Assembly: GCA_902381685.1 (NCBI GenBank)
Contig: LR698958.1
Location: forward strand, 1,932,833 to 1,996,832
Length of the DNA stretch: 64,000 bases
From: Lachnospiraceae bacterium
Lineage (GTDB): Bacteria; Bacillota; Clostridia; Lachnospirales; Lachnospiraceae
Direction of reading: 5' to 3'
A model generated the notes under the pieces. The model had not been told where the DNA came from, ran no database searches, and saw nothing but the letters and a program-made list of their open reading frames with translations. Below are positions 1 through 58,914 of the stretch, piece after piece. Position 1 is the first letter of the stretch. Each line of letters opens with the position of its first letter. Position numbers and translations under genes: made by a program.

Positions 1-272
1 TTCTCTACAAATCTGCTTAAGATTTCTACTCCGTCTTCAATGTCATCGTACCATACTAAATCTACCCCAAGATCTTTTTCCTGTGGGAACAATTTATTGA
101 TAACTAATTTGTGATTACCATTCACGTTTAAGTAAAGAGCTAAAAGTCTTTCTCCTGGGTGAATCCATTTTCCTGTCAAATAATAAATACTTGGAGGGTC
201 GGAAATAATCATCTGTGGCATTCCCTGTTCTTCCATTGCTTTTAAAATTCTACCTACTTTTCCTGCATCCAT
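1..272 (-). CDS. Xaa-Pro aminopeptidase (creatinase N-terminal part), truncated by window
   Basis: The first 90 residues of a minus-strand protein that runs off the left edge. The start ATG at 272-270 has an AGGAGG Shine-Dalgarno at 281-286, eight bases upstream. The N-terminal sequence (QMIISDPPSIYYLTGKWIHP, then GERLLALYLN) is the creatinase/prolidase N-terminal fold of aminopeptidase P and Xaa-Pro dipeptidases. These are cytoplasmic metalloenzymes that release the residue before a proline. The metal-binding catalytic half lies outside the window, so activity and exact subfamily cannot be judged. It has its own sigma-A promoter and is probably independent of the iron genes upstream. Confidence 0.8.
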   Translation of the reverse strand, partial: MDAGKVGRILKAMEEQGMPQMIISDPPSIYYLTGKWIHPGERLLALYLNVNGNHKLVINKLFPQEKDLGVDLVWYDDIEDGVEILSRFVE

Positions 273-323
273 TATGTATGCCTCCTATGTTTTATTGTGC
301 TTCTTTACTTGCACTATAAAGTA

Positions 324-352
324 ATTATAGTATCATTTTTACATTGTGTCAA
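324..352 (-). promoter_or_regulatory. Sigma-A promoter of the Xaa-Pro peptidase gene
   Basis: Minus strand TTGACA at 352-347 and TATAAT at 329-324 with a 17-bp spacer, both perfect consensus. Transcription would start near 317, about 45 bases before the start codon. Confidence 0.8.
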
Positions 353-360
353 CAAAGCAA

Positions 361-525
361 TTATTTCTTTTCTCCGTCGTCAAAACAACTTCCCATACAA
401 CTTTTACAGTTGCTTCCACAACCTCATGTACTCTCACCGTTTTTATGTTTTTTAATTTGATTTCTTATCACCAGCACAACAACAACTGCAATCAACCCGA
501 TAAGAATAATATCTGCCAAACTCAT
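361..525 (-). CDS. FeoB-associated Cys-rich membrane protein with in-frame UGA (putative selenoprotein)
   Basis: Small single-span membrane protein of 54 codons. An N-terminal hydrophobic helix (MSLADIILIGLIAVVVVLVI) is followed by a basic linker and a Cys-rich tail, the layout of the FeoB-associated Cys-rich family. Codon 34 (bases 426-424) is TGA. The frame stays open to TAA at 363-361, and the downstream part carries exactly the expected Cys pattern: GCGSNCKSC, then MGSC. The UGA sits where related proteins commonly have the first Cys of a C-G-C-G motif, which suggests selenocysteine rather than a stop. A small hairpin follows the UGA. It lies 40 bases after the DUF2325 gene, in the operon headed by DUF3793. 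Alternatives are a nonsense mutation or a sequencing error. Compare the Cys-only paralogue at 6813-6950. Confidence 0.6.
397..413 (-). promoter_or_regulatory. Candidate bacterial SECIS hairpin after the in-frame UGA
   Basis: Counting from the base after UGA, nucleotides 12-16 (CAACT) pair with 22-26 (AGTTG) around the loop GUAAA, extended by one G-U pair. The apical loop begins 16 bases after UGA and its first base is G. That fits the known bacterial SECIS consensus: loop 16-37 bases from UGA, with G in the first two loop positions. The stem is short, so confidence is moderate. Confidence 0.45.
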
Positions 526-565
526 TTTTACACCACCGTTTTCTTTATATCATAGCACAAAGATT

Positions 566-850
566 TTATGAAGCACACTCGTTTTGCAGAATTTCGTTCA
601 ACGCATTTTTGCTGCTTGTATGACATCGAACAATATTTGCATTACATTTCTGCGCTTCCGACACGGCGCAGCGCACCATCTTATGCGAAACGGTATTGGT
701 AAATAAAATAACTAAATCCGGACTACCAATCTGTTCACTTAAATTTGCCGTCATCTGCGTAAAGATTTTTGCCTTACATTTATATGATTTACAAAGTTTC
801 TTATACTGTCCAACCATTCGGTCATGTCCGCCAACAATAACTACACTCAT
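566..850 (-). CDS. DUF2325 domain protein
   Basis: A 94-residue cytoplasmic protein beginning MSVVIVGGHDRMVGQYKKLC, a short Rossmann-like alpha/beta domain typical of DUF2325. An in-frame ATG exists 48 bases upstream at 898, but the start at 850-848 is preferred. It has an AGGAGG at 857-863, and the upstream choice would overlap the DUF3793 gene. No biochemical function is established for the family. It sits between DUF3793 (11 bases upstream) and the small Cys-rich membrane protein, behind a DtxR-type operator, so a role in iron metabolism is inferred from context only. Confidence 0.75.
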   Translation of the reverse strand: MSVVIVGGHDRMVGQYKKLCKSYKCKAKIFTQMTANLSEQIGSPDLVILFTNTVSHKMVRCAVSEAQKCNANIVRCHTSSKNALNEILQNECAS

Positions 851-861
851 GTCAAATCCTC

Positions 862-1455
862 CTATCCTGCATAACTTGTCATAATTTCTTCCATGCAAAC
901 CCCATTATAAATAAGGGACAGCAATGTTTCTTTTGCCACTTCAAACTTGCGAAAGAGTTTTAATTTTTCCGTCATGTTCTCATATACTTTCCAGTAGCCT
1001 GCGTAGAGAAAATATTTTCCTTCGTTTTCCATAAATCCTCTCACGTCCTCAAGCGGATACCCTAAAAGCAGTCCCATTTCGTGCGGGAATTCTCCCCGCT
1101 CTTCCATATAAGTTGCATAACGCATCTGAAATGTTCTTAAAATTCTTCCAAACTGAAATACCTGATACCCTTCCTGCCGAAAAAATTGTCTGATCTCTCT
1201 TCGGCAAAGAAACTCTTCCAACTGCTTTCTTCTATAAAGAAGAAACGTAACTTTCTCTTTTGTCTGTAACATTTTATAGTAGGAAAGACCACTCTTTTCT
1301 ATTATTGCCGTAACCTGCCCTGCATTTTCTAATGATACGATGAGCAGATTGGAAACTTTTAACCCGGTAATTAACGGAGCGCACTGCAGCGCCAATTGTA
1401 TCTCTATATTTTTTAAATCCATCTCCCTTACAAGTTCAAATATCTCTCTGCTCAT
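862..1455 (-). CDS. DUF3793 family protein
   Basis: A 197-residue soluble protein with the recognisable DUF3793 signature GLLLGYPLEDVRGFMENEGK followed by YFLYAGYWKVY near the C-terminus. Function unknown. It is the first gene of an apparent operon (DUF3793, DUF2325, Cys-rich membrane protein). Its promoter (TTGACG, 17 bp, TAAAAT) is followed by the 16-bp inverted repeat GTTAGTCTTTTCTAAC that is also present at feoA, so repression by an iron-sensing DtxR-family protein is likely. The start ATG at 1455 has an AAGGAG six bases upstream. Confidence 0.75.
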   Translation of the reverse strand: MSREIFELVREMDLKNIEIQLALQCAPLITGLKVSNLLIVSLENAGQVTAIIEKSGLSYYKMLQTKEKVTFLLYRRKQLEEFLCRREIRQFFRQEGYQVFQFGRILRTFQMRYATYMEERGEFPHEMGLLLGYPLEDVRGFMENEGKYFLYAGYWKVYENMTEKLKLFRKFEVAKETLLSLIYNGVCMEEIMTSYAG

Positions 1456-1469
1456 CTTATCTCCTTTCT

Positions 1470-1485
1470 GTTAGTCTTTTCTAAC
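1470..1485. promoter_or_regulatory. DtxR-type operator upstream of the DUF3793 operon
   Basis: GTTAGTCTTTTCTAAC, an inverted repeat with GTTAG/CTAAC half-sites and a 6-bp centre. It lies between the promoter and the start codon. The same RTTAG-N6-CTAAC pattern recurs at 9161, 9685 and 46854. Confidence 0.65.
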
Positions 1486-1493
1486 TTTAATTC

Positions 1494-1522
1494 ATTTTAA
1501 CTAATTTTTAGTGTTACGTCAA
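1494..1522 (-). promoter_or_regulatory. Sigma-A promoter of the DUF3793 operon
   Basis: Minus strand TTGACG (1522-1517) and TAAAAT (1499-1494) with 17-bp spacing. The operator lies just downstream, at the expected initially transcribed region. Confidence 0.65.
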
Positions 1523-3799: not shown

Positions 3800-5531
3800 A
3801 GGAAACCGCCCCCTTTCCGAATTGTTCTAATGCACTCTGCTGATTGAAAATTTTATAATAGTAACCGTTTTTCTCACAGAGTTCCTCGTGTTTTCCCTGT
3901 TCTACAATTCTGCCGTCTTTTAAAACGTAGATTTTATCTGCCGATACTACATTCGCCAACCTGTGGGAGATAAGCAACACTGTTTTTGTTTTTGCCAGTT
4001 CTCTTACCACTTCCATAATCTGATTTTCACTTTCCACATCTACATTTGATGTTGCTTCATCAAAAATGTAAATGGCACTGTCATGTAAGATTGCTCTCGC
4101 AAGGGCAAGTCTCTGCTTTTGCCCTCCCGATAAGTTTGACGCTTTCTCCTGCAAAATGTAGTCTAAGCCTCCGCTTTTTTCCACAAAGTCTAACAAATGT
4201 ACTTTTTTCAAAGCATTTCTCATTTCTTCTTCCGTGGCGTTTTCTTTCCCCATAAGAAGATTTTCACGGATTGTTCCCGCAAACAGATAACTGTCATGAC
4301 GGATTCGTGTCACTTTTTTCCGAAGCGCTTTCGGTGAAATCATCTGCAAATCAATCCCGTCTATCGTAACTTCTCCGCTGTCCGCCAAATAATCCCCCAT
4401 AATGATAGAAGTAATCGTACTTTTTCCACAACCGGATTCACCGACCAACGCCGTCAGTCCATGCCCTGCCCGTAATGCAATGCCTGACAATATCTGTTTC
4501 TCTTCATCATAAGAAAAATCTACTCCCGCAAATGCAATTTCATCTCCGGAAATTTCTTCTGCCTGTTCTTCTTTCTCTTCCTCCGTCAAATCAACAAGCC
4601 GGAAAATTTTATCCGCCGCCGCATTTCCGTTCATCGCAATATGGAAAAACGAACCGAGAAGTCGAAGCGGCAGGAAAAATTCTGCCGACACCATAATCAT
4701 AAAGAAGCACTGTACCAGCGATACGTTACCCGAGCGATACTCCAACACGCTTAAAATCATTCCAACACCCGCGCCGCCGTATGCGATTAAATCCATAATA
4801 CTGATAGAATTTAACTGCATAATAAGAACACGCATCGTCACTTTTCGGAATTTTTCCGCTTCCTCGTCCATCTTCTTTGCATAACGCCCGTCTGCCTCAT
4901 AAATTTTCAACGTAGTCAGCCCCTGCAGACACTCCAAAAAAGAATCTCCCATCTCCGTGTATGTTCCCCAATATTTTGCCAGCATTTTTTTTGCAAATTT
5001 CTGAACTGCCACAATAGAAAGGGGAATTAAAGGAACACAGACGAGAAGTACAATGGCGACTTTAATACTCATCGTTCCGACAACAAGAAACAGTGTAATC
5101 GGTGCAAGCATACTGTAAAAAAACTGCGGAACATATTTCCCGAAGTAAATTTCCAACTGCTCCACACCTTCGGTACTTATCTGTACAATTTCTGATGTCT
5201 GAAAATATTTTTTATATTGATTTCCCATACGCATCAGTTTCTCATATACCATCGTTCTAAGTTTCTTCTTCACTTCTTTCGACGCTTCAAAAGATAGTTT
5301 TGTGTTCCAAAGCGACATCACGCTGCGGATAAGAACTACAATCCCAAGTGTGACAAGCAGCGCCAACCTTTTTTCCCGCAAATCTTCACCGGAAACCATC
5401 GACTGTATAAATCCTGCTATAGTAAACAGAAAAAGAATGTTCGCAATAAGCATAATCCACTGACTGAAAACCATTTGCACAACCTTTTTCTTTGTATCTT
5501 TAAATTCTGAAAGTAATCGTTTATGAAACAT
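3792..5531 (-). CDS. ABC half-transporter, CydD-like (first of heterodimer)
   Basis: A 579-residue exporter-fold ABC protein: six membrane helices, then an ATPase domain with Walker A GESGCGKST, signature NLSGGQKQRLALARAI, Walker B/catalytic Glu (YIFDEATSN) and switch His (LLISHRLAN). Start chosen at 5531 (MFHKRLLSEF), preceded by GGAG in the end of the upstream gene. A longer frame begins at 5579 but lacks a better ribosome site. It overlaps the small membrane protein by 11 bases and the next half-transporter by 8, which indicates tight coupling. Both sites of the pair look catalytically complete. Related Fur-regulated pairs import siderophores or move haem, and CydDC exports thiols; which applies here is unknown. 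Confidence 0.75.
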   Translation of the reverse strand: MFHKRLLSEFKDTKKKVVQMVFSQWIMLIANILFLFTIAGFIQSMVSGEDLREKRLALLVTLGIVVLIRSVMSLWNTKLSFEASKEVKKKLRTMVYEKLMRMGNQYKKYFQTSEIVQISTEGVEQLEIYFGKYVPQFFYSMLAPITLFLVVGTMSIKVAIVLLVCVPLIPLSIVAVQKFAKKMLAKYWGTYTEMGDSFLECLQGLTTLKIYEADGRYAKKMDEEAEKFRKVTMRVLIMQLNSISIMDLIAYGGAGVGMILSVLEYRSGNVSLVQCFFMIMVSAEFFLPLRLLGSFFHIAMNGNAAADKIFRLVDLTEEEKEEQAEEISGDEIAFAGVDFSYDEEKQILSGIALRAGHGLTALVGESGCGKSTITSIIMGDYLADSGEVTIDGIDLQMISPKALRKKVTRIRHDSYLFAGTIRENLLMGKENATEEEMRNALKKVHLLDFVEKSGGLDYILQEKASNLSGGQKQRLALARAILHDSAIYIFDEATSNVDVESENQIMEVVRELAKTKTVLLISHRLANVVSADKIYVLKDGRIVEQGKHEELCEKNGYYYKIFNQQSALEQFGKGAVSYE

Positions 5532-6812: not shown

Positions 6813-6950
6813 CTAGTGACAATGTCCTCCACAATTTTTGCAATTTCCACCACACTGTAGTGATTTGCCGTTCTTTTTATCATGAATCATACTTCTTACA
6901 GATAGGCCGACCACTGCCAATACAATCAGTCCCGCTATCATTGTTCCCAT
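6813..6950 (-). CDS. FeoB-associated Cys-rich membrane protein (Cys-only form)
   Basis: A 45-residue protein: one N-terminal membrane helix (MGTMIAGLIVLAVVGLSV), a basic linker (HDKKNGK) and a C-terminal cysteine cluster CGGNCKNCGGHCH. This is the standard FeoB-associated Cys-rich membrane protein, probably a partner that helps ferrous iron pass through or leave FeoB, although its precise role is not settled. It starts 14 bases after the feoB stop with AGGAGG at 6957-6962, so it belongs to the feoB transcript. Too short to be noticed by length filters. Compare the UGA-containing paralogue at 361-525. Confidence 0.85.
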   Translation of the reverse strand: MGTMIAGLIVLAVVGLSVRSMIHDKKNGKSLQCGGNCKNCGGHCH

Positions 6951-6964
6951 AAATATGCCTCCTC

Positions 6965-9124
6965 TTATTTTTTCATTTCACGCTGTGGCCTGAACAGTAA
7001 ATATAGGAATCCTGCTATTAAGATAAACGCTGCTACCGTTCCAATTCCAAATACTCCGTTTGTGACAAGCATTCCAACCTGATATACGCAAAGAGAAACT
7101 ACGTATGCAAGTAATGTCTGGTATATGATTGCAAACCAAAACCATTTTGCATTATTCATTTCCCTTTTAATCGCCCCCATTGCGGCAAAACAAGGTGCGC
7201 AGAGAAGATTAAAAATAAGGAAAGAATACGCCGCCAGCGCTGTCATGCTCGCTGCAAGCTGCCCCCAGATTTCAATACCGTTATCCGCATTTACTTCCGC
7301 AAATCCAAACAGGATACCAAATGTACCTACAACGTTTTCTTTGGCGATTAATCCTGTAACTGCTGCCACTGCCATTTTCCAGTCACCCCAGCCAAGCGGT
7401 GCGAAAATCGGAGCAATCACGCCGCCGATTGCAGATAAAATACTGCTGTCCAACTGTTCCGGCTCAAGCATTTTGAATGTTCCGTCTATCCAGCCGAAGT
7501 TCATTAAGAACCAGAGCACAATTGTTGAGAGAAGAATAATCGTTCCCGCTTTTTTAATGAATGACCAGCCTCTCTCCCACATGCTTCTCAATACATTTCG
7601 CACTGTCGGCATATGGTATGCAGGAAGTTCCATAACAAACGGCGCCGGATCTCCCGCAAACATTTTTGTTTTCTTTAAAATAATTCCCGAGCAGATAATT
7701 GCAGCAATACCTACAAAGTAAGCGCTTGGCGCCACCCACCATGCTCCGTCAAATAACGCTCCGGCAATCAGTGCGATAATCGGAAGTTTCGCCCCGCACG
7801 GTATAAATGTTGTTGTCATAATTGTCATTTTACGGTCACGGTCATTTTCAATTGTTCTCGATGCCATAATCCCCGGAACACCGCAACCGCTTCCGATTAA
7901 CATCGGAATAAATGATTTTCCCGAAAGACCGAATTTGCGGAAAATTCTATCCATAATAAATGCAACTCTCGCCATGTAGCCACACGCTTCCAAAAATGCA
8001 AGGAAGAAGAAAAGTACAAGCATCTGTGGAACAAATCCGAGAACCGCTCCTACACCTGCAACAATACCGTCCAAAATAAGTCCCTGTAACCAGTCTGCGC
8101 AGCCGATGGCATTTAATCCGCTTTCTACTAAAGCAGGAATACTAGGTACAGTAATTGATTTTATTCCGAACAGATGCCAACCTTCTCCAAACACTCCGTC
8201 ATTCGCCCATGCTGTCGCCCAGTCTCCTACCGTCGTGACCGAAACATAGTAAACCAAGAACATAACTACCGCAAAAATCGGTAGAGCAAGCCAACGATTT
8301 GTAACAAAATGGTCGATTTTATCTGACGTAGTCATTTTTTCTTTTTTCGATTTTGTCAGACATTCCTCTATAATAGAAGAAATATAAATATACCTCTCAT
8401 TTGTGATAATGCTTTCCGTATCGTCATCAAACGCGTCTTCCATCTCTTTAATCTCTGCTGATACGTCAACATTTTTCTTCATCACGCCCGCAATCTTATC
8501 ATCTTTTTCTAACAATTTGATTGCAAAAAATCTTTCCTGTTCCTTTGGAACAATTCCCGACAGTTTATTTTCTACCTTTTCAATAATGTCTTCCGCCTCT
8601 TTTGAAAACTCGTGTATTCTTTCAGCGCTTTTCTTTTTCTGCGCGATGCCGACCGCTTTTTCAGCCGCCTTTGTAATCCCCTTACCTTTCAGCGCTGAGA
8701 TTTCCACAACTTCACAGCCAAGTTTCCTGCTTAATTTATCAATATGGATTTTGTCGCCATTTTTTTCCACAATATCCATCATATTTACCGCCATGATTAC
8801 CGGAATTCCAAGTTCCATTAACTGCGTGGAGAGATATAAGTTTCTCTCCATGTTTGTTCCGTCTATGATATTTAAAATGGCATCAGGACGTTCCCCTACC
8901 AAATAGTTTCTCGCCACAACTTCTTCCAGTGTGTATGGAGAGAGGGAATAAATTCCCGGTAAATCCATAATGATCACATCTTTATGCCCTTTTAGTTTTC
9001 CTTCTTTCTTCTCTACCGTTACCCCCGGCCAGTTTCCCACAAACTGATTCGCCCCGGTCAACGCATTGAACAGCGTTGTCTTACCACAGTTGGGGTTTCC
9101 CGCAAGTGCTATCTTTATTGCCAT
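6965..9124 (-). CDS. feoB: Ferrous iron transporter B
   Basis: A 719-residue FeoB. The N-terminal GTPase domain carries G1 GNPNCGKTT (residues 9-17), the DLPGIYSLSPYT switch/G3 region and the G4-like NMMD. A linker helical domain follows, then the polytopic membrane domain with gate motifs GSGCGVPGIMASRTIEN and FIPCGAKLPI and a second GATE region near APIFAPLGWGDWK. It imports Fe2+ across the cytoplasmic membrane. Length is typical for Firmicutes. Two feoA genes lie upstream and the Cys-rich partner downstream. A DtxR-type operator sits 37 bases before the start, so feoB can be controlled separately from feoA. Confidence 0.97.
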   Translation of the reverse strand: MAIKIALAGNPNCGKTTLFNALTGANQFVGNWPGVTVEKKEGKLKGHKDVIIMDLPGIYSLSPYTLEEVVARNYLVGERPDAILNIIDGTNMERNLYLSTQLMELGIPVIMAVNMMDIVEKNGDKIHIDKLSRKLGCEVVEISALKGKGITKAAEKAVGIAQKKKSAERIHEFSKEAEDIIEKVENKLSGIVPKEQERFFAIKLLEKDDKIAGVMKKNVDVSAEIKEMEDAFDDDTESIITNERYIYISSIIEECLTKSKKEKMTTSDKIDHFVTNRWLALPIFAVVMFLVYYVSVTTVGDWATAWANDGVFGEGWHLFGIKSITVPSIPALVESGLNAIGCADWLQGLILDGIVAGVGAVLGFVPQMLVLFFFLAFLEACGYMARVAFIMDRIFRKFGLSGKSFIPMLIGSGCGVPGIMASRTIENDRDRKMTIMTTTFIPCGAKLPIIALIAGALFDGAWWVAPSAYFVGIAAIICSGIILKKTKMFAGDPAPFVMELPAYHMPTVRNVLRSMWERGWSFIKKAGTIILLSTIVLWFLMNFGWIDGTFKMLEPEQLDSSILSAIGGVIAPIFAPLGWGDWKMAVAAVTGLIAKENVVGTFGILFGFAEVNADNGIEIWGQLAASMTALAAYSFLIFNLLCAPCFAAMGAIKREMNNAKWFWFAIIYQTLLAYVVSLCVYQVGMLVTNGVFGIGTVAAFILIAGFLYLLFRPQREMKK

Positions 9125-9192: not shown

Positions 9193-9414
9193 TTACTCTA
9201 CTTCTATCATTTCTGCATCTGCTTTTCGTATGGACAATTCATATCCTCTGACTGTAACTTCAATCGGATCACCAAGCGGCGCTACTTTTCTTACGAGAAC
9301 TTCCACCCCTTTTGTAATTCCCATATCCATAATTCTTCTCTTTACCGGGCCTTCCCCATGTAATTTCTTCACCTTGGCAGTTGCCTTGCAAGGTATTTGT
9401 TTTAATGTTTTCAT
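9193..9414 (-). CDS. feoA: FeoA domain protein (second copy)
   Basis: A 73-residue SH3-like FeoA protein. It has the pattern GEGPVKRRIMDMGITKGVEV, VLVRKVAPLGDPIEVTVRGY and LSIRKADAEMIEV, matching the FeoA consensus. FeoA is a small cytoplasmic protein thought to modulate FeoB GTPase or channel function. It lies 14 bases after the other feoA and 68 bases before feoB on the same strand. Confidence 0.93.
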   Translation of the reverse strand: MKTLKQIPCKATAKVKKLHGEGPVKRRIMDMGITKGVEVLVRKVAPLGDPIEVTVRGYELSIRKADAEMIEVE

Positions 9415-9428
9415 ACTCTCGTCCCTTC

Positions 9429-9641
9429 CTATACCATAATTTTATTTGCCATGTCTCTTCCGATGGCAACTCTGGAATTTTTCACATTTACAATCAGATT
9501 TCCACCTATTTCCGATACAACCGTAACTGTTCCTCCCGTGACAAATCCGAGATTTTCAAGAAATCTTCTTGTCTCTTCTTTACCGCCCACTTTTTTAATT
9601 ATCGTTTCCTGTCCTGTACTCATCATTGATAATGGCATCAT
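9429..9641 (-). CDS. feoA: FeoA domain protein (first copy)
   Basis: A 70-residue FeoA-type SH3-like protein (RRFLENLGFVTGGTVTVVSE, GGNLIVNVKNSRVAIGRDMA). It is the first gene of the feoA-feoA-feoB cluster. Paired feoA genes are common in clostridia. The promoter -10 is embedded in a DtxR-type operator, so it should be repressed when iron is replete. Confidence 0.92.
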   Translation of the reverse strand: MMPLSMMSTGQETIIKKVGGKEETRRFLENLGFVTGGTVTVVSEIGGNLIVNVKNSRVAIGRDMANKIMV

Positions 9642-10210: not shown

Positions 10211-10610
10211 ATGAAAAAATCTTTCAAAAAATTTTATCATTATTTTCTTTTCTATTCTTTTGATTACTGGAGTTTTGTGTATTGTACAATTCATGTATCA
10301 TTCTTTTAAAACTCCGAAGATTGAGAAGAAATCACATACCTTATATGGCTTTTTGCTAACAGATAAAAATCAAGAACGCTTACCCGTAACAGCAACTATT
10401 GATTTTGAAATAGGAACATATCCTTTTCAAAATGAGAAAACATCTATACAAGGTAAAATAACCGTTTCATATGCACAAAAAGAGATATATACCACCGACT
10501 TCTACAGCCATAATCTTGAGAGAAAATATATATCCATTGAAGATATTTCTAAACAAAAAAGTGTTGCAACTGTTTTTTCAGTTTGCAACACTTTTTATTA
10601 TGGATTATGA
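10211..10610 (+). pseudogene. Decayed small membrane or exported protein gene
   Basis: A + strand remnant. ATG 10211 (MKKSFKKF) is out of frame with the following hydrophobic stretch FIIIFFSILLITGVLCIVQF. Skipping a single base in the A/T runs near 10225-10235 would join them into a normal signal-anchor protein. The main frame (from TTG 10260) continues with an extracytoplasmic-looking sequence and at its 3' end runs straight through the hairpin terminator of the opposite operon, ending KSVATVFSVCNTFYYGL. The natural C-terminus has therefore been lost too. No recognised domain. A functional short protein from a non-ATG start is possible but less likely. Confidence 0.5.
10555..10596 (-). terminator. 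Bidirectional terminator at the end of the fibre operon
   Basis: A 14-bp perfect stem (AAAAAGTGTTGCAA / TTGCAACACTTTTT) around a 13-base loop, with A/T tracts on both sides so it can work on either strand. It lies immediately after the last gene of the SipW-type operon. Confidence 0.85.
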
Positions 10611-11212
10611 TGATTCTTTCTTTTTAAAACATATACAATCGTTGCTGCACAAAGCACAAGGATTCCCATACTCATCGCTATCGGGAAATCATCTCCCGTT
10701 TTTATAGGTTTTGAATTAATATCTTTCCCATCTTCCTGTGCAATCACTGTCCATTCTGTATTGTATTCTTTTTCTGCAATTTCATTGCCAACCGTCACAG
10801 GCACTTCCAATGTAACCGTCACTTTAACTGTCGAGTTACCTTTAAATTGTCCTAATCTTATTTGATTAAATGACACTGCACTCTGACTGATTTCTCTTCC
10901 GTCCTGCTTTACAGAAAATTGCATATCTTTTAACAGTTCCTGTTCGTCTTTGCAATCTGCCTCCAGAAATAAACTGGTTTCTTTTGTTAAATCTTTTGTC
11001 TGAATGATAATTTCCTGTTCCACACTATCACCCGGCATTAATCCTTTTAATTCTTTAAACAAATCATTCTCTGATATGTTCTTTAAATCAAATGTTTTCT
11101 TCTGTCCATTATAAATAATGGTCGGCGTTTCTTTCGCATATGCTTCTCTCGGAACAAACAATAACGCAAGAATGCATACAAGGAATGCAGTTTTCCACTT
11201 ATTTATTTTCAT
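10598..11212 (-). CDS. Membrane-anchored surface protein with KTGD tail, last gene of fibre operon
   Basis: A 204-residue exported protein. It has an ordinary Sec signal peptide (residues 1-26, ending EAYA), an extracellular beta-rich domain (about 27-165) with no recognised family, and a C-terminal tail SKPIKTGDDFPIAMSMGI, a membrane helix and a KRKN charged end. The tail looks like a sortase signal but lacks a canonical LPXTG. Unlike the three SipW-type proteins of the operon, it has a normal leader. It overlaps the upstream gene by 14 bases. As the only member with a wall or membrane anchor signal, it may fix the fibre or adhesin to the envelope. That role is inferred. Confidence 0.6.
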   Translation of the reverse strand: MKINKWKTAFLVCILALLFVPREAYAKETPTIIYNGQKKTFDLKNISENDLFKELKGLMPGDSVEQEIIIQTKDLTKETSLFLEADCKDEQELLKDMQFSVKQDGREISQSAVSFNQIRLGQFKGNSTVKVTVTLEVPVTVGNEIAEKEYNTEWTVIAQEDGKDINSKPIKTGDDFPIAMSMGILVLCAATIVYVLKRKNHHNP

Positions 11213-11801
11213 TTCTCACTGCCTCCTTTAATTCTTTTGTTTCAGAATCGACTACTACCTTTTTCCATGCATCAGACACCGCTCTTTCCGGCTCCGCCTG
11301 AATGGACTGTGTGGAAATATCCACAACCAGTTTCTCTCCATCTTTCTTCTTTACTTCTTTACAATTTTTGATAAATTGTACGGATTCACCATTTTGAAGA
11401 GGTTTGCGGTAATAGTAAATTCCGTCTATCTCCAGCCAGTTATCCTTAAACCCATCTGGAAATTCTAAAGTATAATCTTCGCCTTGTTCCGGAACATTTA
11501 TTGATATATTATCTGTTTTTGTTTCTGCTTCCGAATCTTGTTCTTTCCCCTTCGATGTTTCATAGTAAACAGAAAGATTACATCTGACATATACCGGCAT
11601 ATTTCCCGTATTTGTAACTCTTACATTACTTTTGACCTGTCCGTCAAAATTTTCTTCAATCTTGGCGCTTACTTTCCCTACGTCAAATTGGTTAGTCAAA
11701 TTACCTTTACTCTGTAAATATGCGATGGTAACACCTGCTATTATGACAGTCAAAAGGAGTAACGCAATCGATATTTTTTTCCCTATTTTCTTTTCTTTCA
11801 T
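11199..11801 (-). CDS. SipW-dependent TasA/camelysin-like minor fibre subunit
   Basis: A 200-residue protein. The N-terminus has a basic patch, a hydrophobic core (ISIALLLLTVIIAGVTIAYL) and directly after it GNLTNQFDVGKV, the hallmark N-x-F-x-x-G-x-V of SipW-dependent leaders. The mature part is a beta-sandwich type (VRVTNTGNMPVYVRCNL), as in TasA and CalY fibre proteins. It sits 14 bases after the giant adhesin gene and overlaps the anchor-protein gene. I infer secretion and processing by the SipW-type peptidase encoded at the head of the operon, and a structural or adaptor role in a surface fibre. Confidence 0.7.
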   Translation of the reverse strand: MKEKKIGKKISIALLLLTVIIAGVTIAYLQSKGNLTNQFDVGKVSAKIEENFDGQVKSNVRVTNTGNMPVYVRCNLSVYYETSKGKEQDSEAETKTDNISINVPEQGEDYTLEFPDGFKDNWLEIDGIYYYRKPLQNGESVQFIKNCKEVKKKDGEKLVVDISTQSIQAEPERAVSDAWKKVVVDSETKELKEAVRNENK

Positions 11802-11815
11802 AGCGTATCACTCCT

Positions 11816-14800
11816 TTATTTCTGATAAATATTTTTCTTTCTGTCCGCACCGTCAAGCCATTTCTCATTTACGCGCTCGTTCCGAATAACAACCTCTTCC
11901 TCTGCACCGATGCGAATTGCAATATTGCCCTGCCCGTCCACGTTGGAGGTTGATTTTATATTGTCTCGCCAGTTCCAGTCTAAGTTTTCTGCTATCTGAT
12001 ATTCTCCTACCGGAAGATGTACCGTTGTTGTTCCTTTACCGCCACTTACGTCTATCGGTATTCTTCTTGTTTCTTTGGAATCTTTTTTCACAACATCAAT
12101 ATATACAACACCGTCTTCGTCTGCATTTACATATTCTTTTGTCAGTTTTAATTTTCCAAAGAATTCATGCAATGCATCTCCATAAGTATCTGTGTATACA
12201 GGTCCCTGACTCGCCTCGACATATGTACTGTTTCCGTCTTCAGTGATTGTTGTATACATCTTTGTAGGCAGTTCTGTGATTGGAATAGATTGTTTCTTAT
12301 CCTCCGCCGGATTCCAAACCTGTCGTTCTGTATGCAGCGTTAAATTCGGCTGGGTATACTCTTCTTTAAACAATCCGTTCAGCATATACGCCCCCTTCTG
12401 TGCCAAAGGATTTTCTTCCGGAAGACTTGAAACATGGAATTCCACTTTGTCCGTATAATCACTATGCTGGGAATCCTTTGCTGTTGTCTTTACAATACAC
12501 GGGTAAAGTTCCATATCCGCTGTAATTAGCGTATTTTTAAATGTATCCCATGTTATCATCTTGTCATCGGATTTCCACTGCCATTCTATAAACGTTCCGC
12601 TGTTCCCCAGCAGTTCGTTCATTTTCAAAATCGGCTCTGTATCAAGTACATCTCCATTTTCATTGACAAAACTTCTTGTTCCCTCTTCCACATTTACTTT
12701 ACAGATTGGATTTCCTTCCATATCGTGGTAAGTTACGACATTAGCGCTATTAAATACCGCCGTGTATGTTTTTTCTTCAAACAACTGCTCCGGTTTTAAC
12801 TTCACAACCATTTTATCCGACACCTTAGTTCCCATGCTGCCGTCGTCTTTATAATCTGTATACCAGCCTTTGAACACATATCCGTCGTATTCATATGCTT
12901 CCAACTGCATAGAACCGTCAGTGTTTCTTACTAACTTACGATATTGCTCAGGCTTACCACCCTCTCCCGCGATAACGGTATCAATATTACTGTTTACCTT
13001 AATCGAAGTTTTTACAAATACCGGCCACAAATCCATAAACTGTTTAACAACAGCATCTTTGGAAACAAATGAAATTTTTGAAGCGTCTAACGCTTCTTTT
13101 GAAGCGAATTTCCAAACATGCCCTGCCTGTGGTTTTTGTTGTGTCCAGCCCGCAAAGTACGACTGTTCTACATCTGCAATTTTGTCAAAGTCCGGATTCG
13201 GTGATACACCAAGTCGTTCACCCATATCTTTGACAACAGGATTTATAGTGTCATTATCATTCATGTGATAAAGAACTAATACAGGGCTATAAACTGCAAT
13301 AAACTTATATGATTTTCCTGCGACAATCTCACCGGTGTATACATATTCCGAACCGTTTGATACAGTTTTCAGTATCTGCTGCTCTCCATCTGTTTCACAA
13401 ATCAGAGACATCAATTCATATTTCTTACCATCTGGCTCTGATGAAAGTACGGATACTTTTCCGCTTTCTGCGGTTACCGTCACTTTTGCCTTTCCAAATT
13501 CGTCCGGTAATTCCTCAACCGTATAACTTGGTTTGTTCGGCAAATTGATTCCGCTCGGAAGATTTTCAATCTGATGAATATTCGTTGTTGTTGTCACATC
13601 ATATTTTGCATATACCGGATATAAATCCATTGTTTCTTTTACTTTTAAACGTTCGTCCAGATAAGAAGAATGTTCCCCATCATATTCTTTCAGCAAATAC
13701 GGCTCTGCTTTTTCAACATTCGATGTACAATATTCCTCTTTCGCATCGTAAATATAATTCCACTCTGCGCTGTCTTTTGCGACTTCGTTTCCTGAAATCC
13801 ACCCAAGAAATTGGTAGCCGTTCCGTTTCATCTGTTCATCTGTCGGAGATGCCTTGCGTTCCAATTTCCCTGAAATTTTTCCGCCGTCCTCCGTATCAAC
13901 AGAAACATCAGTTCCGGAAAGCGGATACTTATATTGATGTTCATTATCCGGCGACATAAATATCGCGTCGTCATAGCGTCTCTGTACAGTTGTTTTTACA
14001 TTTCCCATTTCGTCATGGAAAACAACATCTGTACTAATCATTGCACACCCTTTATATACATCTATAACCGCTTCCCAAAGGTTTCCCGTATCCATCGGAT
14101 TATTCTTATATGTCCAACCATCTTTTGATTTTACTCTCTCTAAAGTCCAAAACTGAAAATGGTATCTTGCATCATCAATCGGCACATATTGAAACTGATA
14201 ATGTATGGAACTGCCTGTAGGCACATTTTTTATCTCGCCTGCATTCGGGAAATCTGAATTTACTGAAATGGCATAGTCATTATTTACACTATTTCCGAAA
14301 GGTAAATTGTGCGAATAGACCTTTATCGGCTCAGTAATCTTCATGTCCTCTTTGTAACTCTCATTGCAATCACCCTGATCTGCATGTTCAATATGCTCTT
14401 TTCCCCAGCCAATAACCTCTTCCATACAATAAGCCGGTCCGGCAATATTTTGGAAGCCTTCTCCGTAAGTGTGTATAACCTTTGTATAAAATTTAGACTC
14501 TGCAAATTCATCTCCATTATCCTGTTCAAATGCTTTCGCCCAATACTCTACTTCATAATTAAACCTTGCCACATATGTAACCTTTTCCGTCAAGTCCGGC
14601 ACTTTATACCTGTACTCTCTGCTAACACATACTTCCGTTCCATCAGCCTGTTTTTTATACCAGCCACGGAATTGGTATCCCTTCGGGAATTCTTTCGTTC
14701 CGCCTTCCGCTTCAACGTCAATATAGACATTATTTTTATCTGATTCTACGAGTGTTCTTCCAACACCCTCTCTTAGCGTCACATCTGGATTTTCATCTTG

Positions 14801-16825
14801 TTCATTTCCTTCAAATTCCGTCAGAACATTAGCCAATGAGTTAATATAGATTGGGTACAACTTCATCTCTTTCTTTACTGCTGCACCATTCGGGTAAAAT
14901 TCCCCCTGTTGTTTAATATCTTTTAATTGTGTAGAAGTAATAGCCGAGTATCCTTTTTCCTCCTCAGAAGGATTTGGAATAGTTGTCCAACCATAGAATT
15001 TACTTCCCTCTATTGGATTTGGCATATGTTCTTTCAGAGCTGCATCATATTTATACCACTCATCTGCTACTGTTGTCTTACCATCTAACTCATAGAATGT
15101 TACTTCCGCTTCCACTCCGGCTGCAAATAAATCCCTGTCCTGAATTGAAACTTTCTTAGGATTTTCAACTCCTTCCAATTTCGCTCCGTCATTCTGTGTA
15201 AGCGCAAGAATCTCTTTCATGTCGGAAACTTCGTGTTTCTCCATGTTTGCTTTTTTATACCAATTCGTTAATCTGTAACGGTCATTTAATTCCATTGTTA
15301 AAGTAACCGCCTGTTCTTCTCTTGGGTGTACGCCTTGAATGGCAAAACTTAACGGGTCACTTGTTTCTGCAGGAACATTTACCAACGCCGTCTTGTCAAT
15401 TTTCACTTTGCCTGCTCCCGGAAAATCAAAGGTTGCCATTACTGATTTTCCATGAACAGGAATACCCAAGTCATAATCCATTACCCATTTATTATAGTGT
15501 GTTTTTAAGTTTAAATATGTCTGGCGCGGCTCATCACCTATAAAATCATAGAATTTGGATTCCCAAAAGTCTATATCCTCATATGTGGCGTCATCTCTTG
15601 GACCATGTACCTCATTATCATCATTATCACCCACTGCCCTGATAGATACACCACTGGCAATTGCGCTTGGCTTAAAGTAAGAATAACTCACTTCACAATC
15701 GCTATCCACTATTCGTGCAATCCCACTCAGATTAACATTATGCTGTATAATCGGTATAACCAAAACTGCATTGTACTGTTGTGAAGAAATATCCCCTGCA
15801 TAATGGCATCTCACAATTTCAGAATTTCCACGCAACGCACCGGTAATTCCTCCGGCATATCCGGCAATACCTGAACCAACTGCCACATAGTTTGCCACAT
15901 CAAAGGAAACTTTAGCTGTGCTAAAACAGTCAATAATATGACATCCATTATTCACTCCGCCAATAATTCCCCCTGCATATACAGATTTTCCGCCTAATGC
16001 ACCTACCGCAATTTTATAATCATTTCTGACAACCGTGTTGCGTAGCTCTCTGCTATCGCCTTCCCCTTCATAGTTGGCGCGGGCACGGCAATATTCTATT
16101 GTGGAACTTGATGCCCAACCGACAAGACCTCCCATATAAAGACCTTCTCCACCGACACCGGTAACGCCTGAAGTGGAGTTATTAACTACTTCCGTTCCAC
16201 TTACTTCACAGTTATATAGCAGGGAATTTTCCACAATTCCGGCAATACCGCCACCTGAAAACCCACCGTTTGTCACAAGAGAAATAACGTTATTCGCAGG
16301 TGATATTTTCAGTTTACTGTTTAACACCGTAATATTTTCCAATTTTGAGTTTTCCGCATAACCTACAATAACTCCACCCTGGAAAATACAGTCTAAATCC
16401 GCATTTTCTACAATCAGATTTTTAATTGTAGCATTTTCTATAAAAGAAAACAGCCCACTGTTAGCATCTTTAATAATGTTTGGATCATATTTTAAACCTT
16501 TGATTGTATGCCCCTGACCATCAAAAGTTCCCTGAAACGGCAAATCTTTTGTACCGATTGTCAGATGTTTAATTCCATAGTGATCCAAAATGCTCTGTTC
16601 TATCTCACCAATCTCAATATCTTCCGTTAAAACGATAGTTTGATCTTTAAAATCAAAACTTTGACTTGCCGCCGCAAATACAAGCAACTCATCAAAACTG
16701 CTAATCTTTCTCACCGGCTCTTCTGCTTTTACCGTTGTGGCAAATCCGGAAAAAATCGGCAACAGCATCGCCAAAACCAATATACCTGCTATATACTTGC
16801 GCACACTACTTTTTTGCTTGTCCAC
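11816..16825 (-). CDS. Giant surface adhesin with GLUG and InlB-type repeats
   Basis: A 1669-residue secreted protein. The signal peptide (about 1-35) ends near TTVKAEE. Residues about 100-400 form a right-handed beta-helix-like region with GLUG-type repeats (GGGIAGIVENSLLYNCEVSG, GGLVGWASSSTIEYC, GGIIGGVNNGCHIIDC). Residues about 500-1450 contain many InlB B-repeat/Listeria-Bacteroides modules, recognisable by FRGWYKK, FLGWISG and FKGWYTDY. The C-terminus (about 1530-1650, LKLTKEYVN...GEYQIAENLDW) resembles a Cna-B stalk domain. There is no LPXTG or KTGD anchor, so attachment is likely through partners in the operon. Its start is 1 base from the end of the preceding gene. Probable fibre tip or adhesin. 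Confidence 0.75.
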   Translation of the reverse strand: MDKQKSSVRKYIAGILVLAMLLPIFSGFATTVKAEEPVRKISSFDELLVFAAASQSFDFKDQTIVLTEDIEIGEIEQSILDHYGIKHLTIGTKDLPFQGTFDGQGHTIKGLKYDPNIIKDANSGLFSFIENATIKNLIVENADLDCIFQGGVIVGYAENSKLENITVLNSKLKISPANNVISLVTNGGFSGGGIAGIVENSLLYNCEVSGTEVVNNSTSGVTGVGGEGLYMGGLVGWASSSTIEYCRARANYEGEGDSRELRNTVVRNDYKIAVGALGGKSVYAGGIIGGVNNGCHIIDCFSTAKVSFDVANYVAVGSGIAGYAGGITGALRGNSEIVRCHYAGDISSQQYNAVLVIPIIQHNVNLSGIARIVDSDCEVSYSYFKPSAIASGVSIRAVGDNDDNEVHGPRDDATYEDIDFWESKFYDFIGDEPRQTYLNLKTHYNKWVMDYDLGIPVHGKSVMATFDFPGAGKVKIDKTALVNVPAETSDPLSFAIQGVHPREEQAVTLTMELNDRYRLTNWYKKANMEKHEVSDMKEILALTQNDGAKLEGVENPKKVSIQDRDLFAAGVEAEVTFYELDGKTTVADEWYKYDAALKEHMPNPIEGSKFYGWTTIPNPSEEEKGYSAITSTQLKDIKQQGEFYPNGAAVKKEMKLYPIYINSLANVLTEFEGNEQDENPDVTLREGVGRTLVESDKNNVYIDVEAEGGTKEFPKGYQFRGWYKKQADGTEVCVSREYRYKVPDLTEKVTYVARFNYEVEYWAKAFEQDNGDEFAESKFYTKVIHTYGEGFQNIAGPAYCMEEVIGWGKEHIEHADQGDCNESYKEDMKITEPIKVYSHNLPFGNSVNNDYAISVNSDFPNAGEIKNVPTGSSIHYQFQYVPIDDARYHFQFWTLERVKSKDGWTYKNNPMDTGNLWEAVIDVYKGCAMISTDVVFHDEMGNVKTTVQRRYDDAIFMSPDNEHQYKYPLSGTDVSVDTEDGGKISGKLERKASPTDEQMKRNGYQFLGWISGNEVAKDSAEWNYIYDAKEEYCTSNVEKAEPYLLKEYDGEHSSYLDERLKVKETMDLYPVYAKYDVTTTTNIHQIENLPSGINLPNKPSYTVEELPDEFGKAKVTVTAESGKVSVLSSEPDGKKYELMSLICETDGEQQILKTVSNGSEYVYTGEIVAGKSYKFIAVYSPVLVLYHMNDNDTINPVVKDMGERLGVSPNPDFDKIADVEQSYFAGWTQQKPQAGHVWKFASKEALDASKISFVSKDAVVKQFMDLWPVFVKTSIKVNSNIDTVIAGEGGKPEQYRKLVRNTDGSMQLEAYEYDGYVFKGWYTDYKDDGSMGTKVSDKMVVKLKPEQLFEEKTYTAVFNSANVVTYHDMEGNPICKVNVEEGTRSFVNENGDVLDTEPILKMNELLGNSGTFIEWQWKSDDKMITWDTFKNTLITADMELYPCIVKTTAKDSQHSDYTDKVEFHVSSLPEENPLAQKGAYMLNGLFKEEYTQPNLTLHTERQVWNPAEDKKQSIPITELPTKMYTTITEDGNSTYVEASQGPVYTDTYGDALHEFFGKLKLTKEYVNADEDGVVYIDVVKKDSKETRRIPIDVSGGKGTTTVHLPVGEYQIAENLDWNWRDNIKSTSNVDGQGNIAIRIGAEEEVVIRNERVNEKWLDGADRKKNIYQK

Positions 16826-17400
16826 TATTTTGCCACCTCCTCGGGCCAGCCTTCAACCGCGAATACATTTTTGCTGTTATTTTCACTTTGTACCGCCTGC
16901 ACTTCCGCTTTAAATTCAATATCGCTTCCCGCATATTCGCTGGTCAATCTATTCACATCAAACTCTATTCCCCGCATTAAATCTTCTGTCGTTTTATTCG
17001 GCTCTAAGACGTCTGTATAATAAATCCAGCCATCTTTCTCCCGCCACTTCTCATCTGCAAATTTGTAATTTACATAATCTTCTGCCGGAAATATCTCTTG
17101 ATTCTTTTTCCCTGTTGTGTTCAATTTCACTCTGACGTATACCGGGTGATTACAAACATTTTTCACTTTAATAATCCGGGATACATCTTCATATTTTAAT
17201 AATTCTTCTTTACCATCTTTTACTTCTACTTCTTTACCATTTTCATCTAATGTGTGATTGATTAATTGTACTTTCACATTACCAAATGTGATTACATTAT
17301 CTGTCTTAATTTTTCTTATTAAAAATGCCGAGGAAGAAAAAATTCCCAAGCATAAAATTAAGAACAAACCCATCACAACTCTTTTCCTATTCTTTGTCAT
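16825..17400 (-). CDS. SipW-dependent TasA/camelysin-like protein (minor subunit)
   Basis: A 191-residue exported protein with leader VVMGLFLILCLGIFSSSAFL, followed by the SipW-type motif DNVITFGNVKVQLI. The mature part carries paired beta strands (IIKVKNVCNHPVYVRVKL, WIYYTDVLEPNKTTEDL), typical of the TasA/CalY superfamily. The stop overlaps the adhesin start by one base, so translation is coupled. Likely an adaptor between the main fibre subunit and the adhesin, which is an inference from gene order. Confidence 0.65.
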   Translation of the reverse strand: MTKNRKRVVMGLFLILCLGIFSSSAFLIRKIKTDNVITFGNVKVQLINHTLDENGKEVEVKDGKEELLKYEDVSRIIKVKNVCNHPVYVRVKLNTTGKKNQEIFPAEDYVNYKFADEKWREKDGWIYYTDVLEPNKTTEDLMRGIEFDVNRLTSEYAGSDIEFKAEVQAVQSENNSKNVFAVEGWPEEVAK

Positions 17401-17460
17401 TTCTTCCTCCTCGTTGATTATTATTTCATTATTATTGTCTTATTCTTGTATGCTTAATTA

Positions 17461-18159
17461 CTATTTGATTCCAAATGCTGCTTTAGCTGCCGGAATAACT
17501 ACGTTTGCTTCGTCAATTACTTGTCCTTCTCCATCAAACATCTGATGTTGGAATGAATGTACTTCGATTGCTCCGGCCTTTGTTCCATCTGCTGTCATGA
17601 AATCATCTCCGGTTGCAGTATCTTTCGCTACTACATCGCTAAATAACGGTGTAGTTGTCCATACATTTTTTGTTGCCTGGCTTCCATCTAAACCTGCTGT
17701 ATATTTGAAGATTCCGCCTACATATTCTCCGTCTGTTCCTGTTGTAGTTGCTTCTACTGCTTCCCAGCCATCGTTAATTGTGAAATATACCTTGTTGTCG
17801 TTTTTCATTGTATTGTTAACGTACACATAAACATAGCATTTTTCGCTTCCTGCTCCAACACCAACATATGGATTTTTTACAACTGTTTCTCCCGGGAAGA
17901 TTTTAGAATTTGCTACCCAGTCTGGTTCATATAAATTTCCGTTTAATTTTGACTCGTCCTTATCAATCGGTTTGTCATCAGGACCACCGTCCGGCTCTGT
18001 AGGGTCAATTGGGTTGATATTACCAACTGTAAATTGGTTTGATAATGAATCGTGAGTTGTTAACCATGCAACAGTTCCCCCTATTAATAATACACATGCC
18101 AATAATGTTGCAATAATTGCTGTTCGTTTTGTCTTACGACTTGTCTGTTTTCTCTCCAT
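17461..18159 (-). CDS. SipW-dependent TasA-like major fibre subunit
   Basis: A 232-residue protein with a textbook SipW-type leader: a basic N-terminus, then AIIATLLACVLLIGGTVAWL, then SLSNQFTVGNI. The mature domain (VVKNPYVGVGAGSEKCYVYV and later strands) fits TasA/camelysin proteins, which polymerise into matrix fibres in Bacillus. It overlaps the signal-peptidase gene by 26 bases, exactly the sipW-tasA arrangement, and is the first substrate gene, so it is probably the abundant subunit. Whether it forms fibres here is untested. Confidence 0.78.
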   Translation of the reverse strand: MERKQTSRKTKRTAIIATLLACVLLIGGTVAWLTTHDSLSNQFTVGNINPIDPTEPDGGPDDKPIDKDESKLNGNLYEPDWVANSKIFPGETVVKNPYVGVGAGSEKCYVYVYVNNTMKNDNKVYFTINDGWEAVEATTTGTDGEYVGGIFKYTAGLDGSQATKNVWTTTPLFSDVVAKDTATGDDFMTADGTKAGAIEVHSFQHQMFDGEGQVIDEANVVIPAAKAAFGIK

Positions 18160-18682
18160 AATCTCTTCTCCTTTTGTAAATATAATGAATTGTTGAGCTA
18201 ATCAATACCATTGCAAGAAGCGTAATAATAATTGCCTTACCGGTTGTTGTTCTTGCGAATAAGTAAATATAGCCTAGTATAGGAAGGGAAAATTTTACCT
18301 TTCCTATAATATGATCAAAATCAACGGGGTTTGCATCGTTGATTTGATTACCGTTAGAATCTTTATTGTGAATGCCGTATGTCTTTACCTGCCGATTTGG
18401 TTCATCAATTTCACGTATTCGATGAGTCGCTACAACCTTGTCATCTAAATAAAAACTAATGTCATCTCCGACCTTTAATTCTTCCGGATTCACTTTTTGA
18501 ATATATACAATAGAGCCAACTTTATATTTTGGCACCATACTGCCACTTGTAATTACATAGGGATTTAAACCGATGAGCCTTACTCCGCCTAATGCAAAGA
18601 TGAGAACTATACAAATAATAAAAAAGAATTGAGAAATATACTTGAAGATGTGATTAAATATGTTGCTTTTTTGCGTTTTCAT
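18134..18682 (-). CDS. sipW: Type I signal peptidase, SipW/ER-type
   Basis: A 182-residue membrane peptidase: N-terminal helix (ISQFFFIICIVLIFALGGVRL), catalytic Ser in SGSMVP, and a His in THRIRE replacing the usual lysine base, the signature of the SipW/eukaryotic-type branch. A second C-terminal membrane helix (TGKAIIITLLAMVLISSTIH) follows. Start ATG 18682 has AAGGAG ten bases upstream; a longer frame to 18706 is less likely. It heads the operon and should cleave the three SipW-type leaders encoded downstream. Confidence 0.85.
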   Translation of the reverse strand: MKTQKSNIFNHIFKYISQFFFIICIVLIFALGGVRLIGLNPYVITSGSMVPKYKVGSIVYIQKVNPEELKVGDDISFYLDDKVVATHRIREIDEPNRQVKTYGIHNKDSNGNQINDANPVDFDHIIGKVKFSLPILGYIYLFARTTTGKAIIITLLAMVLISSTIHYIYKRRRDYGEKTDKS

Positions 18683-18813
18683 TTCGACTCTCTCCTTCAC
18701 TTCCACATGATAAATAACAGAAATGTTTCTTCTGTACGATTCCTTATGAGAGTCTTGTTATACTTCTTTTCTCTCTAAAAAATTTGATTATCAGTTTTTT
18801 CTGCTATATATAT

Positions 18814-34947: not shown

Positions 34948-35047
34948 TTCCTTCTCCTCCTTTTTGTTAATAATGTACACTTTTTCAAACCAAACACAAA
35001 CCTTTTTAGTAATTCTAATACTTTTCCTTGAAAATTTCTATAGTATT

Positions 35048-42254: not shown

Positions 42255-42404
42255 CCTTATAGATTTTGTTTGCACCGCCGATAATAAAAAAATCTCTTCG
42301 TCCTCAGACAAAGAGATTGCGTAAATTCAATGTTAGAATTCATATCTCCTCGGTAGGCGTTCTCAACTTATGCCTTACGGCACCTACTGTCTTCGGCAGT
42401 TACT
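42255..42404 (-). promoter_or_regulatory. Ribosomal protein L10 leader
   Basis: The transcribed region before rplJ contains the characteristic stems: the CTCGGTAGGCG-type hairpin near 42350, the AGTAGGTGCCGTAAGGCA segment near 42375-42395, and a T-rich hairpin (AATCTCTTTGTCTGAGGACG) near 42290-42315. This fits the conserved Firmicutes leader bound by L10-L12 for feedback. Confidence 0.8.
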
Positions 42405-42409
42405 ATAGT

Positions 42410-42438
42410 AATCTAACATATTTTTTTACCAATGTCAA
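42410..42438 (-). promoter_or_regulatory. Sigma-A promoter of rplJL
   Basis: Minus strand TTGACA (42438-42433), 17-bp spacer, TAGATT (42415-42410), immediately before the L10 leader. Confidence 0.75.
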
Positions 42439-52045: not shown

Positions 52046-52059
52046 TTTTTCTCCTCAAA

Positions 52060-56832: not shown

Positions 56833-56930
56833 ATACTTTTCCCTTTCTCTTTCTATTTTACATAACTTTTCACTATCTATGGATTATATCAAACATCACC
56901 GCTATATGATATATGATAAAATATACAAAA

Positions 56931-56969
56931 AAAGGACGTAGTGTTTGGTTATTTTTCACTACATCCTTT
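56931..56969 (-). terminator. Terminator hairpin of the GGACGTAGT family (copy D)
   Basis: A 13-bp stem (AAAGGATGTAGTG / CACTACGTCCTTT) and TTTTTTTG on the minus strand, after the smaller GH20 gene. The core matches copies A-C. Confidence 0.85.
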
Positions 56970-56975
56970 CAATAT

Positions 56976-58736: not shown

Positions 58737-58822
58737 TTTGCTTTTCTCCTTTTGTTGTCTTTTAAATTTGAATTAATAAGTTACTTTTTCCCTTCCCTCC
58801 TTTTTGCGAAAATAACGTTCTG

Positions 58823-58851
58823 ATTATAACATAGGATTATATGTTTTTCAA
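58823..58851 (-). promoter_or_regulatory. Sigma-A promoter of the 586-residue GH20 gene
   Basis: Minus strand TTGAAA (58851-58846), 17-bp spacer, TATAAT (58828-58823). Confidence 0.7.
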
Positions 58852-58861
58852 ATACTGTTTA

Positions 58862-58895
58862 AAAAAATCCCGTTCCATTTCTGAAACGGGATTTT
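58862..58895 (-). terminator. Terminator after the edge GH2 gene
   Basis: Stem AAAATCCCGTT / AACGGGATTTT with an 11-base loop region, then TTTTTTT on the minus strand. Confidence 0.85.
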
Positions 58896-58914
58896 CCTAT
58901 CTAGTTTTTACAAC

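Follow-up and report, generated by a model that had tools for sequence, protein, structure and literature searches.

Among bacterial systems for ferrous-iron uptake, Feo is described as the most widespread, and the available text of the same source leaves it as an unanswered question whether translation of PF12669 peptides yields functional products at all (PMC8749426). Prokaryotic selenoproteins were reviewed in 2026 across 119 families (PMC13188914); in the available part of that review neither PF12669 nor FeoB is listed in the selenoprotein table, and the term FeoB has zero occurrences in its text, as it has in the available parts of deep-Sep (PMC12013277) and of PMC9312934. A literature search, with subscription papers mostly and bioRxiv preprints wholly outside its scope, returned no paper joining FeoB-associated with selenoprotein or FeoB with selenocysteine and in-frame UGA, none joining F. 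umbilicata with selenoprotein, and none in which DUF3793, DUF2325 and FeoB were paired. The original prediction for the locus described here knew of no described case of a FeoB-associated protein containing selenocysteine (Sec); none was found in the literature searched, and a report outside that literature may exist.

The locus lies in a 64-kb window, by which we mean the whole stretch of DNA that was analysed, and the window comes from a bacterium of the gut that belongs to the Faecalimonas group. With the single TGA of the minus-strand frame at 361-525 read as Sec (U), the translation is MSLADIILIGLIAVVVVLVIRNQIKKHKNGESTUGCGSNCKSCMGSCFDDGEKK, followed by the stop codon. The gene and the two elements discussed with it are the following.

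361..525, minus strand: candidate Sec gene, encoding a PF12669 membrane protein of 54 residues whose codon 34 would be Sec (translation with TGA as U, and Pfam)
424..426, minus strand: in-frame TGA, putatively read as Sec (codon 34; translation, and Cys in the matching column of relatives)
397..413, minus strand: SECIS-like hairpin with stem GCAACU/AGUUGU and loop GUAAA (rule-based search)

The encoded protein begins with a single hydrophobic helix, which is followed by a basic stretch and then by the cluster U-G-C-G-S-N-C-K-S-C-M-G-S-C, and the window copy is free of any lesion besides the TGA at codon 34. The UGA-spanning protein matches PF12669 end to end, scoring 46.1 bits with X at the U position and 43.8 bits with C there (cut-off 27), whereas the 33-residue stump scores 28.9 bits, so the segment past the UGA contributes 15-17 bits. 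The translation and these scores bear out the claims that an in-frame TGA at 426-424 starts the Cys cluster and that the frame stays open beyond it with the Cys spacing of the family. Four features by which bacterial selenoproteins are recognised were found, namely family homology (PF12669) on both sides of the window UGA, Cys at the UGA position in homologues, a bSECIS-like hairpin downstream and a UGA-containing homologue in another organism (G010, described below). Comparison with relatives supports the predicted Sec-containing FeoB-associated Cys-rich protein, and we hold with high confidence that 361-525 is best read, by a wide margin, as a Sec form of PF12669.

In a ten-row alignment (A3), whose Cys relatives were picked for the Gly-Cys motif and in which repeats can slip by one unit, the U34 column holds Cys in eight of the nine other rows, and this is what the proposed comparison of homologues at the UGA codon yielded. 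One of the eight is the row of G010, which contributes a neighbouring Cys and has its own TGA two codons on; the ninth row, with Leu, is the window's own Cys paralogue (6813-6950). The prediction had taken this paralogue as the standard version of the protein, but for the U position it proved a poor template: the canonical first Cys comes two residues after the window UGA, and at the UGA position itself the paralogue has Leu. In many PF12669 proteins of the fetched loci, C-G-C-G stands in place of the window's U-G-C-G, and in those of L096, L124, L130 and L171 the C-G-C-G-x-x-C spacing is exactly that of the window protein. It is these C-G-C-G members of PF12669 that are the fitting Cys counterparts of the window protein.

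A second UGA form occurs in G010, one of ten genomes in the genus set. Its gene, with the translation MVDWIIGIGVAVLVVLIIRQQFRKKRNGQSGCGUGGCSGCAGTCPTDRKDQN, keeps the whole Cys cluster and, like the window gene, lies upstream of an Xaa-Pro peptidase gene, between it and what we take to be rpoC. Anchored on the shared Asn-Gly, its U falls two residues later than that of the window protein (C-G-U vs. U-G-C), in a register that is uncertain by one unit because such Gly-Cys repeats can slip when aligned. The ten genus genomes hold 13 PF12669 matches, two of them with an inner stop: the TGA of G010 and a TAG in G008 that lies in a match overlapping another match. Across the family, tRNA-Sec is found in 59 of 397 sampled genomes; 58 of these, together with G002, G005 and G009, form a set of 61 tRNA-Sec-positive genomes with 79 PF12669 matches and one inner stop (the G010 TGA), and with G001 added this stays the single inner stop among 81 matches in 62 such genomes. 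No UGA form of PF12669 was found in G001, G002, G005 and G009, where tRNA-Sec and SelB are present. Among the matches listed for the alignment A2 query, TGA lies within the cluster only in G010; these searches covered 383 order, 351 class and 335 near-relative genomes in overlapping sets, and weaker Sec forms may be absent from the matches listed for A2 and for a further genome search, the latter lacking even the TGA match of G010. Eight other TGA matches (G455, G569, G607, G164, G583, G555, G962 and G158) have no TGA inside the Cys cluster, the TGA being a stop after the cluster in seven of them and lying beyond a TAG in G555, and for a further TGA match in G021 the Pfam-domain match has no stop inside. 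The Sec form is very rare within PF12669.

Truncated relatives were recovered in a search over 5.8 billion database proteins. The four window-type relatives are each 33 residues long and end in ...NG(K/E/V)ST just before codon 34, that is, at the UGA codon in all four; they stand for 50 contigs (43 for P0003), and two of the four are only 76% identical. Among six G010-type relatives, four end at ...NGQSGCG and stand for 660 contigs (615 for P0008), and one of these four is named by NCBI as an F. umbilicata FeoB-associated protein; the remaining two appear to be a chimera and a frameshifted contig. Among NCBI-named entries, the truncated protein is carried by F. umbilicata and by two MAGs, one of a Faecalimonas sp. 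and one of a Lachnospiraceae member. Judged from these records, the stop is fixed and old and not an error, and in the database relatives it is presumably TGA. The random stops that would mark decay were not seen among the readable relatives, whose N-termini are intact and which end at a shared codon position; the cluster is whole in G010 and the loss of the gene in G001 is clean. The truncated entries would represent a class of mis-annotation, in which a Sec codon read as a stop leads databases to cut the protein short. As for viral sequences, 33 stretches of viral contigs matched a pattern and none was a relative, and megablast of window positions 300-1500 against phages gave no match.

tRNA-Sec scores above the Rfam cut-off in five of the ten genus-set genomes, including G001 and G010, and SelB scores above its cut-off in the same five. 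G010 has selD, selA and selB by NCBIfam match along with tRNA-Sec; G001 has tRNA-Sec (Rfam) and selB by NCBIfam match, preceded by frames that by eye resemble the selD and selA of G010. The selD of G001 has an N-terminal in-frame TGA in the stretch TKTAGUAAKIGP (L167, around 3900-4100), and in both genomes prdA, which in G001 matches its model, is followed by a gene with an inner TGA that we take, from its position, to be prdB-like. The lack of Sec machinery that would have spoken against the prediction is not seen in these two, the nearest genomes analysed. No tRNA-Sec was found within the 64-kb window, in which Rfam matched only a ribosomal protein L10 leader (42278-42414, 81.4 bits). Because relatives have tRNA-Sec, selA, selB and selD, and a selD and prdB that contain TGA, the clade of the window very probably decodes Sec, and we infer that Sec is inserted in the window organism as well. 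Among 29 non-overlapping window ORFs of at least 150 aa, none ends in TGA (19 end in TAA and 10 in TAG), so TGA is a rare stop in the window; it ends 5 of 47 such ORFs in the G001 loci and 3 of 29 in the G010 loci, although some of the ORFs so counted may be interrupted at Sec codons. Elsewhere in the window, 28960-34980 and 48749-63969 encode large proteins of several domains, anchored to the membrane at the C-terminus, that we presume, by reading, to be secreted glycosidases.

The hairpin described in the original prediction, with loop GUAAA, 16 bases after the UGA and with G first, has the geometry claimed for it: its loop opens with a G at the 17th base past the UGA (16 bases between), on a 6-bp stem of -5.1 kcal. 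By the rule-based search it falls within the bSECIS limits quoted in the available text of PMC13188914 (a loop of 3-9 nt, a stem of 4-16 bp, G at one of the first two positions of the loop, and 16-37 nt from the UGA), as does the hairpin of G010, at base 33. At minimum energy (-16.4 kcal, z -5.3) the stretch folds differently, into a longer hairpin whose loop of 17 nt opens at the same G. As evidence the geometry is weak: in a search that allowed loops of up to 14 nt, an equal or better hairpin was present at 4.7% of 2000 random TGAs for the window and at 5.75% for G010, and 5 of the 30 TGA codons that end ORFs of at least 100 aa also have one. Ranked by minimum energy against 1000 random TGA stretches, the 56 bases of the window come within the top 1.1% and the stretch of G010 within the top 9.8%, and the 67-nt stretch of G010 is no better than its shuffles (z +1.1). 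Rfam at a lax threshold on 350-440 gave two matches far below gathering scores and no SECIS family. The hairpin is compatible with Sec insertion, not decisive for it, and weak when taken alone.

The surroundings of the candidate Sec gene contain the following features.

862..1455, minus strand: DUF3793 protein, first gene of a probable operon (Pfam PF12672, 171.9 bits)
566..898, minus strand: DUF2325 protein, with an ATG start at 853 (Pfam PF10087, 120.7 bits)
324..352, minus strand: promoter TTGACA-17 bp-TATAAT, serving the Xaa-Pro peptidase gene that comes next (sequence match)
3..272, minus strand: start of the gene for an Xaa-Pro peptidase (Creatinase_N; Pfam, and tblastn on 116 fetched loci)
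6813..6950, minus strand: Cys-only PF12669 paralogue adjoining feoB (Pfam, 59.9 bits)
6965..9124, minus strand: feoB, 719 aa (ORF), presumably so from our reading
9193-9414 and 9429-9641: ORFs upstream of feoB that we likewise take to be FeoA-like

The DUF2325 gene lies 40 bp upstream of the candidate Sec gene, and from this spacing the two are probably in one operon. The TTGACA/TATAAT promoter, both boxes of which are present at the same spacing in G001, starts at the ninth base beyond the stop codon of the candidate Sec gene; with the promoter of the next gene right after it, this gene is therefore probably the last of a DUF3793-DUF2325-Sec operon. It is not directly beside feoB, and it lies 6.3 kb from the Cys copy that is, so only its family and its surroundings connect it with Feo. 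Between the upstream regions of feoA and DUF3793, no shared words of 9-14 bp were found.

The window FeoB protein matches 80 of the 116 fetched loci, nearly all loci having been fetched as PF12669 matches, and adjacency to feoB is typical of PF12669 genes, not defining. An Xaa-Pro peptidase gene is the neighbour common to the window Sec gene, the G010 Sec gene and the Cys PF12669 genes of five further genomes, with feoB also in four of these five fetched loci; DUF2325 is found in three further fetched loci, all with feoB. Loci in which DUF2325, DUF3793 and Xaa-Pro genes recur by PF12669 or feoB are L095, L067, L096, L099 and L070; L068, L034 and L047; and L101 and L116. Because Xaa-Pro and DUF2325 genes recur by PF12669 or feoB in other loci, the Sec copy seems to occupy a fragment of a feo neighbourhood that has been displaced, and the recurrence in family genomes suggests an uncharacterised feo-linked gene set.

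A DUF3793 query on the genome collection gave one relative, L001, from a Faecalimonas sp. MAG (genome G001, the nearest to the window among those analysed), whose DNA matches to the window are 77-92% identical. The DUF3793, DUF2325 and Xaa-Pro genes are kept there (L001 1-2766 and 8892-8900), and approximately 190 bp are missing between the last two, corresponding to the Sec gene minus its last few codons; the absence is a clean deletion, not decay. L001 spans the stretch that in the window carries feoB and contains no FeoB match; a separate gene matching FeoB, accompanied by a PF12669 gene, lies elsewhere in G001. The joint absence of this feoB copy and the Sec copy is only a hint, because it concerns one lineage with several differences. 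The same G001 stretch is also without the window's TasA-like cluster; at 10598-18706 the window holds several genes that we take, by reading, to encode TasA-like secreted proteins, and a presumed signal-peptidase-like gene (18134-18706), resembling SipW/TasA matrix loci.

Were the UGA a true stop, the 33-residue transmembrane stump would be functional and the rest of the frame a remnant, as might be supposed from the 33-residue form held in databases and from the conserved N-terminus. Such a stump would be without the Cys cluster that names the family, yet both the window and G010 keep Cys with family spacing past the stop, relatives have Cys at the codon itself, and the UGA of G010, two codons on with respect to the NG motif, still lies inside the same Gly-Cys motif; we consider this explanation improbable. 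We give still less weight to a young pseudogene, produced by a recent nonsense mutation (TGC or TGT to TGA) of a redundant paralogue. One base turns Cys into TGA, a Cys paralogue is present in the same genome and the gene is lost in G001, but the same stop codon is found in proteins 76% identical and in 50 contigs, the window copy has no other lesion, G010 has a second UGA form, and the relatives decode Sec.

That none of the 29 window ORFs of at least 150 aa ends in TGA could also be taken to favour a sequencing error or the reassignment of TGA to an ordinary amino acid. The 33-residue database copies from 50 contigs speak against an error, and a sense TGA would make many frames seem to end at TGA, which none of the 29 does, while TGA does end ORFs in the loci of G001 (5 of 47) and G010 (3 of 29). 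We regard this last explanation as the least credible of all, barely worth entertaining.

With 361-525 read as a Sec form of PF12669, SelB with Sec-tRNA-Sec would decode the UGA of codon 34 with help from the hairpin that closely follows it. A single-helix membrane protein would result, with its cluster, U-x-C-x3-C-x2-C-x3-C, predicted on the cytosolic side because the positive residues RNQIKKHK follow the helix. There the cluster may bind Fe2+ or another soft metal, or form a reversible selenenyl-sulfide (U-x-C), and it could relay iron from the FeoB system or redox-gate it. A more tentative proposal, to which we give somewhat less than an even chance, is that two related gut species each carry Sec in the same Cys-Gly-Cys motif at different positions, making a U-x-C/C-x-U selenenyl-sulfide switch, with either partner as the selenol, at the cytosolic exit of an Fe2+ transporter, for redox gating or metal relay. 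If the Sec reading is true, it adds a new selenoprotein family and brings selenium chemistry into Feo ferrous-iron uptake. It also bears on whether PF12669 peptides are translated, because an exchange of Cys for Sec is only sensible in a cluster that is translated and does chemistry.

Within the same clade, UGA frames are seen in the prdB-like genes of G001 and G010 and in SelD of G001; these proteins are unrelated to that of the window, and PrdB and SelD serve as positive controls for Sec decoding in the clade. Among described selenoproteins, the thioredoxin-like Sec.1/Sec.2 and the SO_0444 family Cu/Zn efflux proteins share UGA decoding and a U-x-C/C-x-U pair, some with a link to metal transport (available text of PMC13188914); none of the UxC/CxU selenoproteins in that available text is listed as PF12669, and no sequence relation is claimed. 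The PF12669 Pfam family resembles the window protein in length, single hydrophobic helix, basic stretch and Cys cluster, and differs from it by the putative Sec at one cluster position and in gene location, the window gene having DUF2325 and Xaa-Pro as neighbours and not following feoB directly. Also close in form are the C-G-C-G members of the family (for example, in G271, G338 and G605), which share the cluster but have Cys in place of U and no UGA, and of which the copies in G271 and G338 adjoin the Xaa-Pro gene, like the candidate Sec gene of the window.
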